From assembly GCF_026413145.1 (NCBI RefSeq), contig NZ_JAOVYZ010000008.1:1-50953 (forward strand): a stretch of 50,953 nucleotides of DNA, given 5' to 3'. This document shows, piece by piece, positions 7,753 to 26,368 of this stretch. This DNA is from Limosilactobacillus kribbianus. Its GTDB lineage: Bacteria; Bacillota; Bacilli; Lactobacillales; Lactobacillaceae. Below the pieces are notes generated by a model. It did no database searches. It was not told where the DNA came from and worked only from the letters and a program-made list of their open reading frames with translations. How positions within the stretch are numbered: position 1 is the first letter of the stretch; each line of letters begins with the position of its first letter. The position numbers were made by a program, and so were the translations under genes.

Positions 7753-9735
7753 GTGACCACGAAGAAAGTAAAATATGATGACTCCTCCATTCAGGTCTTG
7801 AAGGGCCTGGAAGCGGTTCGCAAGCGGCCGGGGATGTACATCGGCTCGACCGATGCCCGGGGGCTTCATCACTTGGTATATGAAATTGTCGATAACGCGG
7901 TAGACGAGGCTCTTTCCGGCTACGGGAAGGAAATCAGCGTCACGATCGAAGCCGACAATGCAATCACGGTTCAGGACCATGGACGGGGGATGCCCGTGGG
8001 GATGCACGCCTCCGGGAAGCCAACGCCAGAGGTTATTATGACCGTCCTGCACGCCGGTGGGAAATTCGGTCAATCCGATGGTTATAAGACCTCGGGGGGG
8101 CTGCACGGTGTTGGGGCCTCGGTCGTCAACGCCTTGTCGACCCACCTGACGCTGACGATTGTCCGGGATCACCAGCGTTATCGTGAAATCTTTAAGGATG
8201 GGGGCCAGCCGGTCGGAACCCTCAAGAAACTGGGCAAGACCACGGCCGGCAACGGGACGACGGTCTCCTTTAAGCCGGACCCCAAGATCTTTACGACGAC
8301 GGTCTATGACTACAACACCCTGGCCAATCGGCTGCGCGAATCAGCCTTCCTGCTCAAGGGAATCAAGATTATCCTGACCGATAAACGGCCGGGACAAGAA
8401 AAACAGGACGTTTTCCAGTACGAGGACGGGATCCAAGAGTTTGTGTCCTATCTCAACGAAGGCAAGGACACCCTGGGCAAGGTTCTCTACTTTGATGGCA
8501 AGCAGGATGGGGTCGAAGTTGAGGTCGCGGCCCAGTATAACGATGGTTATTCCGAAAACCTGCTGTCCTTTGTCAACAACGTTCGGACGCCGGACGGAGG
8601 AACTCATGAGGCCGGTTTCCGCAACGCTTGGACCAAGACCTTCAACGAATATGCCAAGAAGGTCGGTTTGCTAAAGGCTAACGGGAAGAACCTAGAGGGA
8701 AGTGATGTCCGCGAAGGATTAACGGCCGTCGTTTCCGTTCGGATTCCGGAACGCCTGTTGCAATTTGAAGGCCAGACCAAGGACAAGCTGGGGACTCCGG
8801 AGGCCCGCAAGATCGTTGATTCGATCGTCAGCGAGCAGTTGAACTACGCCCTGATGGAAAACGGCGACTTTGCCCAGATGCTGATCAAAAAGTCTCTCAA
8901 AGCCCGTGAAGCCCGTGAAGCCGCCCGCAAGGCCCGTAACCAGGCCCGGGGCGGCAAGCGGCGCAGCAAGAAGGAACGCAATCTTTCCGGCAAGCTGACA
9001 CCGGCTCAATCGAAGAACGCTAAGAAAAACGAGCTCTTCTTAGTCGAAGGGGATTCGGCCGGCGGTTCCGCCAAACAGGGTCGCGATCGTAAGTACCAGG
9101 CAATCCTGCCGTTACGGGGTAAGGTTCTCAACACCGAAAAGGCCAAGCTCGATGACGTTTTAAAAAACGAAGAGCTCAACACGATCATCTACACAGTGGG
9201 TGCCGGGGCCGGCTCCGAATTCAACGTTGAGGATTCCAACTACGACAAGATCATTATTATGACCGATGCCGACGATGACGGGGCCCACATCCAAATCTTA
9301 CTGCTGACTTTCTTCTACAAGTACATGCGGCCGATGATCGAGGCAGGCAAGGTCTACATCGCCCTGCCGCCGCTCTACCGCCTGCAACAAGGCCGGGGAG
9401 CCAAGACAAAGATCACCTACGCCTGGACCAACGACGAATTGACTGCCCTTACTAAGTCAATGGGGAAGACTGCTTCCCTGCAACGTTTCAAGGGGCTTGG
9501 TGAGATGAACGCCGACCAGCTCTGGGAGACAACGATGAATCCGGAAACGCGAACCTTGATCCGGGTACGGATTGAGGATGCCGAGCTGGCCGAACGCCGG
9601 GTTACGACCCTGATGGGCAATAAGGTTGAACCGCGGCGGGAGTGGATCGAGGATCACGTCCAGTTCACCCTCAGCGATGATCAGGAATCGGATCAGCTGG
9701 TGGAAAGCAAGGGACGATTAAACTCGAACAAGTAA
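7753..9735 (+). CDS. parE: DNA topoisomerase IV subunit B
   Basis: ATPase subunit of topoisomerase IV, which decatenates daughter chromosomes. The GHKL ATP site is seen as EIVDNAVDEAL (Asn of the N-box) and DHGRGMP, with QTKDKLGTPEAR before the Toprim domain, which shows LVEGDSAGGSAKQGRDR and the metal-binding DADDDGAH. PPLYRL and GLGEM follow. GTG at 7753 is chosen because GGAGGT is six bases before it; the ATG at 7738 lies upstream of that site. This gives 660 residues. It has a small Lys/Arg-rich insert (ARKARNQARGGKRRSKKER, about residues 395-413) normal for this family. parC follows after 221 bases. Confidence 0.97.
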   Translation: MTTKKVKYDDSSIQVLKGLEAVRKRPGMYIGSTDARGLHHLVYEIVDNAVDEALSGYGKEISVTIEADNAITVQDHGRGMPVGMHASGKPTPEVIMTVLHAGGKFGQSDGYKTSGGLHGVGASVVNALSTHLTLTIVRDHQRYREIFKDGGQPVGTLKKLGKTTAGNGTTVSFKPDPKIFTTTVYDYNTLANRLRESAFLLKGIKIILTDKRPGQEKQDVFQYEDGIQEFVSYLNEGKDTLGKVLYFDGKQDGVEVEVAAQYNDGYSENLLSFVNNVRTPDGGTHEAGFRNAWTKTFNEYAKKVGLLKANGKNLEGSDVREGLTAVVSVRIPERLLQFEGQTKDKLGTPEARKIVDSIVSEQLNYALMENGDFAQMLIKKSLKAREAREAARKARNQARGGKRRSKKERNLSGKLTPAQSKNAKKNELFLVEGDSAGGSAKQGRDRKYQAILPLRGKVLNTEKAKLDDVLKNEELNTIIYTVGAGAGSEFNVEDSNYDKIIIMTDADDDGAHIQILLLTFFYKYMRPMIEAGKVYIALPPLYRLQQGRGAKTKITYAWTNDELTALTKSMGKTASLQRFKGLGEMNADQLWETTMNPETRTLIRVRIEDAELAERRVTTLMGNKVEPRREWIEDHVQFTLSDDQESDQLVESKGRLNSNK

Positions 9736-15464: not shown

Positions 15465-15986
15465 ATGCAACTGAAGAAAGCAGGAATGGCCGACCTTGCG
15501 TTGGTCTTGGAAATTTTGCGTGATGGCCGGGACCAGCTGGCTGAACGCGGGGTCGACCAGTGGCAGGGGGATTATCCGAACGCCACCCATATTAAGCAGG
15601 ACATTGAGGCCGGGAACGCCTACCTAATCCAGGCCGACGATGATCAGACGGTTGGGACGGTTGCCATCGTGGCCGCTCCGGATTCCGTCTATGATGACTT
15701 GAACGGTCAATGGTTGGCGCAGACGGATAAGTACGTGGTAATTCACCGGGTCGCCATTCATTCAGACCACGCTGGTAAGGGGTACGCCTCGGCACTCTTT
15801 GTCCACCTCTTGGATTACCTGGCCGAGCAGACGGACATTCAGTCAGTCCGGGCAAGCACCAATCAGGACAATCAAGTCATGCAGCACCTGCTGACCAAGC
15901 ATGGTTTTACTAAGGTGGGGACGCTCAAGGGCGCTTACCGGCCACAGGAACTGTCCTACGTTTACGAACGGCTTGTAAAGAACTAA
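15465..15986 (+). CDS. GNAT family N-acetyltransferase, copy 1
   Basis: The GNAT fold transfers an acetyl group from acetyl-CoA. The CoA-binding motif A is seen as VIHRVAIHSDHAGKGYASAL at about residues 89-108. Length is 173 residues. A close paralogue (174 residues) is encoded at 25844-26368; both share DGRDQLA, DQWQGDYPN, TDKYVVIHRVAIHS and HAGKGYASALF. The gene follows the triosephosphate isomerase paralogue with AAGGTGAAAG before the ATG. Substrate is unknown; the context gives only weak hints. Confidence 0.88.
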   Translation: MQLKKAGMADLALVLEILRDGRDQLAERGVDQWQGDYPNATHIKQDIEAGNAYLIQADDDQTVGTVAIVAAPDSVYDDLNGQWLAQTDKYVVIHRVAIHSDHAGKGYASALFVHLLDYLAEQTDIQSVRASTNQDNQVMQHLLTKHGFTKVGTLKGAYRPQELSYVYERLVKN

Positions 15987-22760: not shown

Positions 22761-23315
22761 TTAATTGCCGGTTTTCTTTAGGGAATTGAGGAAGGCAGGA
22801 CTGCTGGTGATCTTGGTGGCATAGTCGACCATTTCATCAATCCCCGGTTTCATCCCCCGTTTAAACCATTCGATCACCAGGTTATAGGCAATCCCGTTCC
22901 AGGCGGCATGGATGATGTAGTCCTGTTGGTCTGGCAAAATTTCTTGGTTTAACAGTGCGAGGATTTCCGCTTCCAATCCGGCATTGATGATGATCGTCAG
23001 CTTTTTTCGCTGCTCGTAAACGGCATTGAAAGTGTAGCGCCAGCCCTCCTGGAGGCCGGGGAAGAAGCTATTAAAGCAGTTGGTGGTGACGCTTTGGATC
23101 AGTTCTTCCAAAATGTCATTTTTGGACTTGTAATTATTGTAAAAGGCGGAGCGGGAAACACCGGCCACCTTGATTAATTCGGTAATTGTAATTTTGGCAA
23201 AATCTTTTTTCCGCATCAAAATGAAGAGGCCCTCTTGAATCGACTCCCGGACGATCTGGCGCGATTCGTGGTTGGCCTTTTTTAGTGCGGCAATCTGTTT
23301 GGCAGTTTTAGTCAT
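22761..23315 (-). CDS. TetR/AcrR family transcriptional regulator
   Basis: The N-terminal helix-turn-helix is ITITELIKVAGVSRSAFYNN, about residues 41-62, followed by a ligand-binding helical domain; length 184 residues. ATG at 23315 follows AGAAAGGATC and is preferred over the 19-codon longer frame, which lacks a site. It is divergent from the operon at 23444-25676 with a 128-base spacer. TetR-type regulators usually repress the divergent operon and respond to a small molecule, so it is the likely control gene of that operon. Confidence 0.9.
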   Translation of the reverse strand: MTKTAKQIAALKKANHESRQIVRESIQEGLFILMRKKDFAKITITELIKVAGVSRSAFYNNYKSKNDILEELIQSVTTNCFNSFFPGLQEGWRYTFNAVYEQRKKLTIIINAGLEAEILALLNQEILPDQQDYIIHAAWNGIAYNLVIEWFKRGMKPGIDEMVDYATKITSSPAFLNSLKKTGN

Positions 23316-23443
23316 GTAAAGTGATCCTTTCTGTGAAAACAAATTTTCGCTTCTGTCCACGCGGCTCTTCAAACCATTGTCATCCCCCTTATTGTAAAGT
23401 AAACTACGGATAAAACAACTGTATTATCGGAAAGGAGAACGAC

Positions 23444-24181
23444 ATGATTAAGGTTTCGATTAGAGGAAAAGAATTCACCGAGACGGATATTAAGGAATGG
23501 GAAGCCTGGCGAGTAGGAGTCTCGAAGAAATTCTTTGAAAAGAAATTAAACAAGCAGCTCGACATTAAGAATGCGGATGAGCTTGCCGCATTTAAAGCAG
23601 CGATTCCCCAAGCGGAGATGCGACGCCTGATGCAAAAACAGGTTGACTTTACGGCCACTGGCAGCAATATCGTCGTTCGAATGTCCAGGGGGAAGCGCAA
23701 GATCAGCGTGACGGAGATGGATGTGGACTTTTGTTATTCAAAAACGCTGCGCAAGATGTACGATGACATGATGCTCAACAACACGGAAGCCAACCGCCGG
23801 GCCTGCCTGCGGGCCAACCCGGATCATTACCTGCTGCAGGGCCTGAATGAGACCGATCAAGAAGTGATTGAGCTGACGGGTGGGCTGCCATGGGCCAGCA
23901 GATTCGTCATTCGTTACGGTGACTTTGCCGGTTTGCAATCGAAAAAGGATCCGGACTACCCTTATCAAGCAGCTGGGGTCTCGTACCTGCCGAGTGGCCT
24001 GGCCATCGGGGCCGTTCGTCACCAGATGAAGGATACCGCGACGGGGTGCCACATCAAGCTAATGGTTGAATTTCCAATCTTGATGCCGGATAAGAACATT
24101 CGCGCCCACGAGTACCATTTAGCGTGCGAATTCTACAATTGGTTTAGCGAAATCGAAAGAAGAATTAAGGAGGGTGAATAG
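23444..24181 (+). CDS. Unknown protein, first of two tandem paralogues
   Basis: I do not recognise the family. It is a soluble 245-residue protein with no signal peptide or membrane segment. It shares its order of blocks with the next gene: an N-terminal IxxWExxR-type helix (KEWEAWRVGVSKKF), NPDHYLLQG near residue 125, QEVIELTGG near residue 140, a DPDYPYQAAGVSYL block near residue 170, IGAVRHQMKDTATGCHIKL near residue 187, and HEYHLACEFYNWF near residue 225. The conserved His, Asp, Arg and Glu residues look like an enzyme active site. GGAAAGGAGAACGAC precedes the ATG. It starts a TetR-flanked operon. Confidence 0.8.
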   Translation: MIKVSIRGKEFTETDIKEWEAWRVGVSKKFFEKKLNKQLDIKNADELAAFKAAIPQAEMRRLMQKQVDFTATGSNIVVRMSRGKRKISVTEMDVDFCYSKTLRKMYDDMMLNNTEANRRACLRANPDHYLLQGLNETDQEVIELTGGLPWASRFVIRYGDFAGLQSKKDPDYPYQAAGVSYLPSGLAIGAVRHQMKDTATGCHIKLMVEFPILMPDKNIRAHEYHLACEFYNWFSEIERRIKEGE

Positions 24182-24182
24182 G

Positions 24183-24992
24183 ATGGAAGCCGAAGTATAC
24201 TTTAGCGGCAAAAAGGTGGCACCAAAAGAAATTGAGGAATGGGAGAAACGGCATTCGGTCGCAATGGCCAAGCGCTTGCAGAAGTTCTATCATATCGATG
24301 TCAGCCCATTCTTTGTGCGAAGCATTCCCGAAACCGACGTCTTGACCGTGCGCAAGAAGCTTGTCGATTACAAAATGCAGCTCAGCAATGAAGAGATTCG
24401 CGGGAAACTAAAGCACGTCTTTCAATTGACCAACACGGCTGAGGACTTGATGGCGACTTTAGGGCGGCACAAGCGCAAGTCCAGCGTCGTGGAAATCGTC
24501 GTTAAAAACGTGCCCGCTAATTTTGACCTGAAGAAGTTTGTTGATGAAATCCAGGCCCTGATGACCTCGTCCTCCACCAAGGACCGCCGGATTGGCTTGG
24601 CAGCCAGTCCGGACCATCTGCTTCTTGAAGGGCGACCACATAATTCCCAGGAAATCGTTGAGATTACTGGTGGGGCCCCGATGGAAGCCCACTTTATCAA
24701 CTATTACGGTGTTGAAGCGGGGATCAATTATCCACGGGATCCGGAATACCCCTACCAAATGGTCGGCATTAGCATGATGACGAATAACACCATTGCGGGG
24801 GACATTCGTCATCAGTACAAGGAAGAGGGAACAGGCTTTCGGGCCAAGCTGGCAGACGAATTCCCCGTTTTCTTCACCAGCTCCATGATCCGTGAGCACC
24901 AGTTCCACTTGGCCAACGAATTCTTAGTATGGTACAAGTATCTGCTAGATAATTGGAAGCAATCGCCCCAGCAAGTAAAAAACAGGAAGTAG
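24183..24992 (+). CDS. Unknown protein, second of two tandem paralogues
   Basis: Paralogue of the preceding gene: EEWEKRHSVAMAKRL at the start, SPDHLLLEG, QEIVEITGGAPM, DPEYPYQMVGISMM, IAGDIRHQYKEEGTGF and HQFHLANEFLVWY. Identity is clear in the C-terminal half and low in the N-terminal half, so the copies have diverged and probably do different jobs or form a heteromer. The 269-residue length assumes ATG 24183, nine bases after AAGGAGG; a GTG at 24174 would overlap the upstream stop. Function is unknown. Confidence 0.8.
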   Translation: MEAEVYFSGKKVAPKEIEEWEKRHSVAMAKRLQKFYHIDVSPFFVRSIPETDVLTVRKKLVDYKMQLSNEEIRGKLKHVFQLTNTAEDLMATLGRHKRKSSVVEIVVKNVPANFDLKKFVDEIQALMTSSSTKDRRIGLAASPDHLLLEGRPHNSQEIVEITGGAPMEAHFINYYGVEAGINYPRDPEYPYQMVGISMMTNNTIAGDIRHQYKEEGTGFRAKLADEFPVFFTSSMIREHQFHLANEFLVWYKYLLDNWKQSPQQVKNRK

Positions 24993-25001
24993 GTTATTGA
25001 A

Positions 25002-25676
25002 ATGAAGATTATGGTAATTGGCGCCTTTGGCCGGGTTGGACAAAAGGTTGTTCGATTAGCCCAAACACAGGGAATGCAAGTGACCGCGGTTAGTCATCAC
25101 GATCATCCGGAAGTCGATCTCGGTCAGGCAACTGTCTTAATCAAAGACGTCGAGGAACTGACGCAAAAAGAGATCACCGGCTATGATGCCATTCTAGATG
25201 CAACGGCCGGCTGGGATGAAGCCAGTGCAGCCAACATTTATCTTGGCCTCTGGCATCTTGCCCAATTGTTGAGTGGCTTTAAGAATCAGACGCGCCTGTT
25301 GAAGGTTGGCGGCACGAATACGCTTTATATTAATCCTGCACACACACAGACCCTTCAGAGCCTATCCAGCTATTACCCAGCAAAGTACAAGTTCATGTGT
25401 GACGCCCATCAAAAAGCACTCGATATTCTGCGGCGCTATTCTAATCTCTTGTGGACCTATGTTACCCCGGCATATAATTTTGACTCTCAGGGCCCGGCCA
25501 CCTATGCTTACCACGTCGAAGGAGAGGATTTTACGCCTAATTTAACGGGTGATGATGGCAAAGACGATTACATTAGTTACGCTGACTATGCTTATGGGAT
25601 TGTGGATTTGCTTGCTAATCACCGCTTCATTCGCCAACGGATCACCCTTGTTCATGGTGACAAGCCTGGTCAATAA
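25002..25676 (+). CDS. NAD(P)-binding oxidoreductase, atypical short-chain / NmrA-like
   Basis: A Rossmann-fold protein of 224 residues. The dinucleotide motif reads MVIGAFGRVGQKVVRL (GAxGxxG, residues 4-19). The later part has LKVGGTNTLY near residue 104 and a YADYAYGIVDLL block near residue 200, as in the YwnB/NmrA-type family. It starts 10 bases after the second paralogue with AAGTAGG before the ATG, and a strong terminator follows, so it closes the operon. The paralogues may supply or use its substrate; this is inferred from context. Confidence 0.83.
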   Translation: MKIMVIGAFGRVGQKVVRLAQTQGMQVTAVSHHDHPEVDLGQATVLIKDVEELTQKEITGYDAILDATAGWDEASAANIYLGLWHLAQLLSGFKNQTRLLKVGGTNTLYINPAHTQTLQSLSSYYPAKYKFMCDAHQKALDILRRYSNLLWTYVTPAYNFDSQGPATYAYHVEGEDFTPNLTGDDGKDDYISYADYAYGIVDLLANHRFIRQRITLVHGDKPGQ

Positions 25677-25690
25677 ACCAATTGGGAAAG

Positions 25691-25720
25691 GCAGCGCTTT
25701 GAGCAACGCTGCTTTTTTTT
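25691..25720 (+). terminator. Terminator of the TetR-flanked operon
   Basis: GCAGCG (25691-25696) pairs with CGCTGC (25707-25712), then eight T. Confidence 0.9.
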
Positions 25721-25843: not shown

Positions 25844-26368
25844 ATGCAAATTAAGCAAGCAACGATGGATAATCTTGACCAAATCATTGAAATCCTGCGC
25901 GACGGCCGCGACCAGCTGGCCTCCCAAGGGATCGACCAGTGGCAAGGGGACTATCCCAACGTTGAACACGTCAAGGAAGATATCAATCACGGCTGGGCTT
26001 ACCTGGCTCAATCCGATGATGATGAAACGGTCGGCGCCCTGTCGATCGTGGAAGCACCGGATCATTCCTACGATGAGCTCGACGGTGACTGGCTCATCGA
26101 TACCGACAAGTACGTGGTGATCCACCGGGTTGCCATTCACTCTAACCACGCCGGTAAGGGCTATGCTTCAGCCCTCTTCACCAACGTGATCGACTACATT
26201 AAGACGAACCGGAAAGACATCAAGACGATCCGGATTGACACCCACGAAGATAACAAGATCATGCAGCACCTGATCACCAAGACTGGCTTTACCAAGGTTG
26301 GGATGCTCCATGGTGTTTACCGTCCAGAGGAAAATTCAATCGTTTACGCCATGCTGACTGGCAACTAA
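25844..26368 (+). CDS. GNAT family N-acetyltransferase, copy 2
   Basis: Paralogue of the gene at 15465. Both carry the motif A region HRVAIHSxHAGKGYASALF and the front block ILRDGRDQLA. By eye the two align without long gaps over their whole length with a majority of identical residues. This copy is a single-gene unit with its own promoter and terminator, while copy 1 is coupled to the triosephosphate isomerase paralogue. GAAGGGATGATCAAC precedes the ATG. The substrate is unknown. Confidence 0.88.
   Translation: MQIKQATMDNLDQIIEILRDGRDQLASQGIDQWQGDYPNVEHVKEDINHGWAYLAQSDDDETVGALSIVEAPDHSYDELDGDWLIDTDKYVVIHRVAIHSNHAGKGYASALFTNVIDYIKTNRKDIKTIRIDTHEDNKIMQHLITKTGFTKVGMLHGVYRPEENSIVYAMLTGN

Follow-up and report, generated by a model that had tools for sequence, protein, structure and literature searches.

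The systems that most resemble the present locus are the 2,4-diacetylphloroglucinol hydrolase PhlG (PF18089; 3hwp), the phloretin hydrolases (Phy) of Eubacterium ramulus, Flavonifractor plautii and Mycobacterium abscessus (5xe5), and the TetR-reductase detoxification operons, which are a general kind in lactic acid bacteria. PhlG and Phy are zinc enzymes that remove acyl chains from phenolic antibiotics and from plant polyphenols. PhlG adopts a Bet v1-like fold; its zinc ligands we take to be H129, E160, H270 and E274, with His214 as the catalytic residue. PMC8562490 describes PhlG as coordinating zinc and hydrolyzing a C-C bond. According to PMC11878095, phlG is under repression by the TetR protein PhlH, which ligands release. 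Since phloretin breakdown is reported for a Lactiplantibacillus strain whose phy gene product is 43% identical to the reference (PMC10458433), lactobacilli do meet phloretin-type substrates.

The locus studied here lies in a window of 50,953 nucleotides, the whole stretch of Limosilactobacillus kribbianus DNA that was analysed, and its features are collected in Table 1. The first-pass annotation had described a divergent TetR gene, two tandem paralogues, a NAD(P)-binding gene and a terminator, and each was found where it had been placed. The conserved blocks that it listed occur in both paralogues, p1 and p2, which align over 249 columns (E 2e-45). The ATG of p2 is one base past the p1 stop codon, with an alternative GTG at 24174 in the ORF list, and from the gene spacing we infer that p1, p2 and the reductase gene are cotranscribed. 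The terminator stem has a folding energy of -14.8 kcal/mol (z -2.8), equalled by none of 200 shuffles; it was missed by the pattern scan, whose range covered loops of 3-8. Between tetR and p1 a sigma-70-like pattern was detected by scanning at 23377-23405, and a repeat search of this region for an operator with inverted-repeat arms of at least 8 found none. An identical four-gene order occurs in one further species of the genus (G1033), in which 170 of the 181 bases of the stretch 23290-23470 are the same.

Table 1. Features of the p1-p2 locus, with positions counted from the first base of the window.
Feature	Position	Strand	Evidence or remark
TetR-family regulator, 184 aa	22761..23315	-	PF00440, 28.6 bits against a cut-off of 24; minus-strand ATG at 23315
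Intergenic region shared by tetR and p1	23316..23443		Operator and promoters expected here
p1, PhlG-like putative zinc C-C hydrolase, 245 aa	23444..24181	+	hhalign to PF18089 members; invariant columns; members outside the profile
p2, paralogue of p1, 269 aa	24183..24992	+	32% identity to p1; invariant columns
NAD(P)-binding putative reductase, 224 aa	25002..25676	+	PF13460 NAD_binding_10, E 9.2e-11
Intrinsic terminator, stem-loop followed by a T run	25686..25717	+	Folding energy compared with shuffles

The p1 and p2 frames behave as genes, since comparison with a second Limosilactobacillus species (DNA identity 97% and 95%) gave dN/dS values of about 0.04 and 0.02, indicating strong purifying selection between the two species. 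The best PDB relatives of the reductase are 4r01 and 3h2s (both named as putative NADH-flavin reductase) and 3ew7 (the Lmo0794 protein). Its gene shares 82% DNA identity with positions 8877-9551 of locus L096, at a dS of about 1.05. Between the same two species the dS of p1 and p2 is 0.13 and 0.26, far less than that of the NAD(P)-binding gene, and this contrast hints that the latter may have been replaced through recombination.

Within the genus, a family member was found in 3 of 50 genomes (E 0.001) and the p1-p2 pair in 2 of the 50. The flanking GNAT gene is near-universal (46/47 genomes), and the flanks were compared at ten fetched loci of other species, the best 10 GNAT matches of 44. No match to 22761-25676 was present in any of these ten loci, and in nine of them no more than about 250 bases separated the upstream DUF915-gene sequence from the GNAT flank; at the tenth, L108, the upstream match ends at the gene preceding DUF915. 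With the block missing from these genomes and its two flanks near each other, we conclude that tetR, p1, p2 and the reductase gene were gained or lost as one unit, and by this comparison of gene content the block is an accessory cassette. The window also holds two GNAT acetyltransferase paralogues (15465-15980 and 25844-26365) that are 63% identical and about 10 kb apart; two GNAT matches are found in many other genomes of the genus as well.

Profile matches to the p1/p2 family were obtained in 36 of 301 Lactobacillaceae genomes, representing 22 of 40 genera, with those in G105, G205 and G253 short or broken. A sample of 248 other genomes of the phylum gave no family member at E 1e-4, so the distribution is patchy. 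A pattern scan of named genomes yielded 200 candidates, 32 of which were confirmed, including members from Enterococcus, Lactococcus, Staphylococcus, Lacticaseibacillus, clostridia, an Eggerthellaceae genome, Nocardia, Tsukamurella, Amycolatopsis and Pimelobacter. On plasmids, members turned up in 20 records (19 from Streptomyces, one from Tsukamurella), 18 of which annotate the protein as 'hypothetical protein'; the phage records gave no family match. The family genes of L061, L062 and L063 (Enterococcus, Lacticaseibacillus and a MAG) are broken across frames, through either decay or assembly error. A third, distant member is encoded in the same genome as the window, on contig C23 (L097, 3082-5371), with a divergent TetR gene beside it; it is adjoined on the same strand by a short-chain dehydrogenase ORF, which, read from its first possible start, would overlap it by about 46 bases. 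Many actinobacterial copies carry a twin-Arg motif near their start, and the Pfam Tat-signal models match weakly 5 and 2 of 36 members. No published description of the p1/p2 family was found in the open-access literature searched.

Neither p1 nor p2 gained a useful match from sequence searches in Pfam, NCBIfam (p1 and p2 only, of the whole family), PHROGs or the PDB (p1 alone and 36 members); the PHROGs hits, at E 0.14-0.32, were put down to chance. No Pfam model naming this family matched p1, p2, 10 relatives or the 36 members of alignment A4, which leaves out the plasmid loci L032-L034, the frame-split L061-L063, the partial frames of L035 and L058 and the split second copy of L050 (alignment A2 leaves out L022 and L024). 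A hand-chosen set of 33 rows (A6) has seven invariant columns, five of which are H128, E143, H193, H225 and E229 of p1. H222 of p1 is also invariant in the family, and the spacing of H222, H225 and E229 would fit one face of a helix. The equivalents of the six residues in p2 are H145, E160, H210, H239, H242 and E246. Similarity searches supplied 19 further members that do not belong to the profile; the four positions other than H193 are kept in all 19 of them, and H193 in 18 (Asn in L095). The order of the invariant residues pointed to PhlG, which we took to be a candidate relative.

For the comparison 17 PF18089 members were fetched, and a PDB search with 13 of these as a profile recovers PhlG (3hwp) and phloretin hydrolase (5xe5/5xey) at E of 6e-53 or below. 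Aligned by hhalign with a profile of 56 family sequences, the 17 members gave a probability of 89% (E 2e-6, score 47.9) over 169 columns. Under the same setting the score of this pair did not exceed 21.0 with 150 column-permuted targets or 12.3 with reversed profiles, and 13 clusters of neighbouring ORFs, some of which may be antisense frames, reached at most 17.2 against the family and 21.9 against PF18089. In the best alignment H128, E143, H193, H225 and E229 of p1 fall on positions 137, 168, 222, 278 and 282 of the 3hwp chain, which at the constant tag offset of 8 are H129, E160, H214, H270 and E274 of PhlG. This coincidence is no independent proof, because hhalign rewards the matching of conserved columns. 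The p1/p2 family thus has His, Glu and HisxxxGlu in the PhlG order, a His between the Glu and the HxxxE motif, and, as judged from sequence, homology beyond chance. It appears from profile-profile comparison to be distantly homologous to the PhlG and phloretin hydrolases, with H128, E143, H225 and E229 as the predicted metal ligands of p1 and H193 as the predicted catalytic residue.

The alternative that p1 and p2 are unrelated to PhlG, being a metal enzyme or oxidoreductase with a convergent His/Glu pattern and a profile match by chance, is quite improbable. It would explain why the link is visible to profile-profile comparison only: PF18089 did not match p1, p2, the 10 relatives or the 36 A4 members in hmmscan, 3hwp was absent from the PDB matches of the 36 members, and HMM scores between the family and PF18089 sets were not significant singly (best 10.7 bits). 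The hhalign result also varied with the input, as smaller profile sets gave probabilities of 4-77%, one of them with a best alignment of 29 columns in a different register, and an alternative column rule gave 68% with an alignment that ends ahead of the HxxxE motif. Yet with the largest sets the score is over double that of any control, and each of the catalytic positions aligns, in the same order. The first-pass annotation had been unable to assign the conserved blocks to a known family; the profile-level relation ties them to the zinc-dependent C-C hydrolases typified by PhlG and phloretin hydrolase. Being distant, this match to a known enzyme kind counts only in part against the annotation's proposal of an undescribed system.

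The residues at the five key positions of PhlG and of Phy are thus shared in identity and order, whereas in other respects p1 and p2 differ. The distance from the first His to the Glu is 15 residues in the p1 family and 31 in PhlG, and H222 has no PhlG counterpart. The WWFxWH motif, present in the 13 aligned PF18089 members (as WWM in some), is absent from the p1/p2 family, and the pocket therefore differs from that of the PF18089 enzymes. Because the Pfam model fails, this motif is missing, the spacing differs and there is an extra invariant His, we file the proteins as a new family of the PhlG superfamily, outside PF18089; this new family is best read as belonging to a kind of enzyme already known. 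Unlike PhlG, p1 and p2 have no adjoining biosynthetic cluster that we could see, and the family occurs as paralogue pairs at some loci. A plant-polyphenol setting as for Phy is plausible. The genome itself gave no PF18089 match. The clostridial PF18089 genes in L078 and L079 adjoin an ORF whose translation resembles by eye a large FAD-dependent oxidoreductase, which fits polyphenol breakdown.

The same superfamily fold and metal site might support other chemistry on a polyketide-like or quinone substrate, such as decarboxylation, isomerization, cyclization or the hydrolysis of an ester or lactone. The distance to PF18089, the missing WWFxWH motif, the altered site that H222 suggests and the reductases of three different families near some Bacillota loci would all suit this reading, which we nevertheless hold to be unlikely, since all five positions thought important for hydrolysis by PhlG are kept, His214 included. 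It is highly improbable that p1 and p2 form a non-catalytic ligand-binding or carrier pair that sequesters a small molecule. Bet v1-like folds, that of PhlG included, often bind ligands only, but the most conserved His and Glu residues are typical of a metal site, and they recur in p1, in p2 and in members from Bacillota as well as Actinomycetota.

Linkage to a regulator is a further trait shared with PhlG, whose gene has a TetR gene beside it (PhlH/PhlF), and the window resembles phlH-phlG in having the regulator adjacent to the enzyme gene. Seven duplicate loci (L005, L006, L007, L046, L097, L089 and L092) were removed ahead of counting. Of the remaining 60 family loci, 49 have a TetR (38) or MarR (11) gene no more than 400 bases away, compared with 131 of 3203 random placements (4%), although the regulator models had been seeded with genes next to family members and may favour these over a background that was drawn from long loci only. 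Leaving out the model-seeding loci gave 41/52; among eight further lactobacillar loci found later, only three had such a gene. No TetR or MarR gene was within this distance in L009, L010, L035, L040, L042, L045, L052, L057, L058, L061 and L094, with a MerR gene instead in L040. The proposal of two paralogous putative enzymes with a linked TetR gene is borne out. By analogy with PhlH, the sensor of the substrate is probably the TetR protein.

The linkage of the reductase is different. The first-pass annotation had raised the possibility that it is constant, which does not hold: a reductase gene was found at 8 of 60 loci, compared with 230 of 3203 random placements (7.2%), and general reductase linkage was dropped. 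In a closer Bacillota group, picked after the results had been seen, it was linked in 7 of 19 loci against a background of 5.6%, and without the three query-supplying loci in 4 of 16 (p about 0.01). Locus L008 has a further NAD_binding_10 gene, behind a MarR gene. The cassette resembles the TetR-reductase operons of lactic acid bacteria in its divergent TetR gene and small NAD_binding_10 protein; it differs in being centred on two metal-hydrolase-like paralogues.

Nor is pairing obligatory, as two divergent copies are present in only 9 of 35 loci examined, in records that are actinobacterial by title. In G050 and G263 two copies lie 1-2 kb apart. In the tree p1 and p2, the latter on a long branch, fall inside a 17-row clade (99/95); because this clade holds no Nocardia-type copy, pairing probably arose more than once. 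The loci L043, L044 and L048-L052, titled Nocardia, Rhodococcus and Amycolatopsis, carry a pair of divergent paralogues, of which one has a twin-arginine-like start, and in six of the seven a TetR gene is located behind that copy. The two members of such a pair may be the exported and the cytosolic version of the same kind of enzyme.

On balance we favour, with somewhat better than even confidence, a ligand-inducible cassette in which paired PhlG-like zinc hydrolases would cleave a C-C bond of a phenolic or polyketide sensed by the TetR protein; its best-reading role is inducible detoxification or catabolism. The substrate would release the divergent TetR repressor, as ligands do with PhlH at phlG. 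Zinc would be held by the four predicted ligands of p1, and by H145, E160, H242 and E246 in p2, with H193 (H210 of p2) serving in acid-base catalysis. The bond cut would be a C-C bond next to a carbonyl group, in an aryl ketone or a 1,3-diketone: zinc-bound water would attack the ketone, and the leaving carbon, aryl or enolate, would be protonated by H193. The NAD(P)-dependent protein might reduce a carbonyl or double bond of the substrate or product, before or after hydrolysis, and p1 and p2 may either form a heteromer or divide the substrates between them. A small-molecule, perhaps phenolic, substrate, as suggested earlier, is supported as likely. A wider view, possible but doubtful, is that lactic acid bacteria, clostridia and actinobacteria share a new zinc C-C hydrolase family in sensor-controlled cassettes, with duplicated subunits acting as a heteromer, a reductase in some lineages and one Nocardia-type copy with a Tat-like export signal, and that it disarms antimicrobials of the acylphenol or 1,3-diketone type from plants or competing microbes.

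C-C hydrolases are an uncommon enzyme class. With a conserved set of His and Glu residues and a sensor gene next door, the substrate can be screened for directly, since the ligand that lifts TetR repression is probably the substrate itself. If the enzymes are active on polyphenols or acylphloroglucinols, the cassette would bear on the tolerance of lactobacilli to plant material and on their transformation of dietary compounds.
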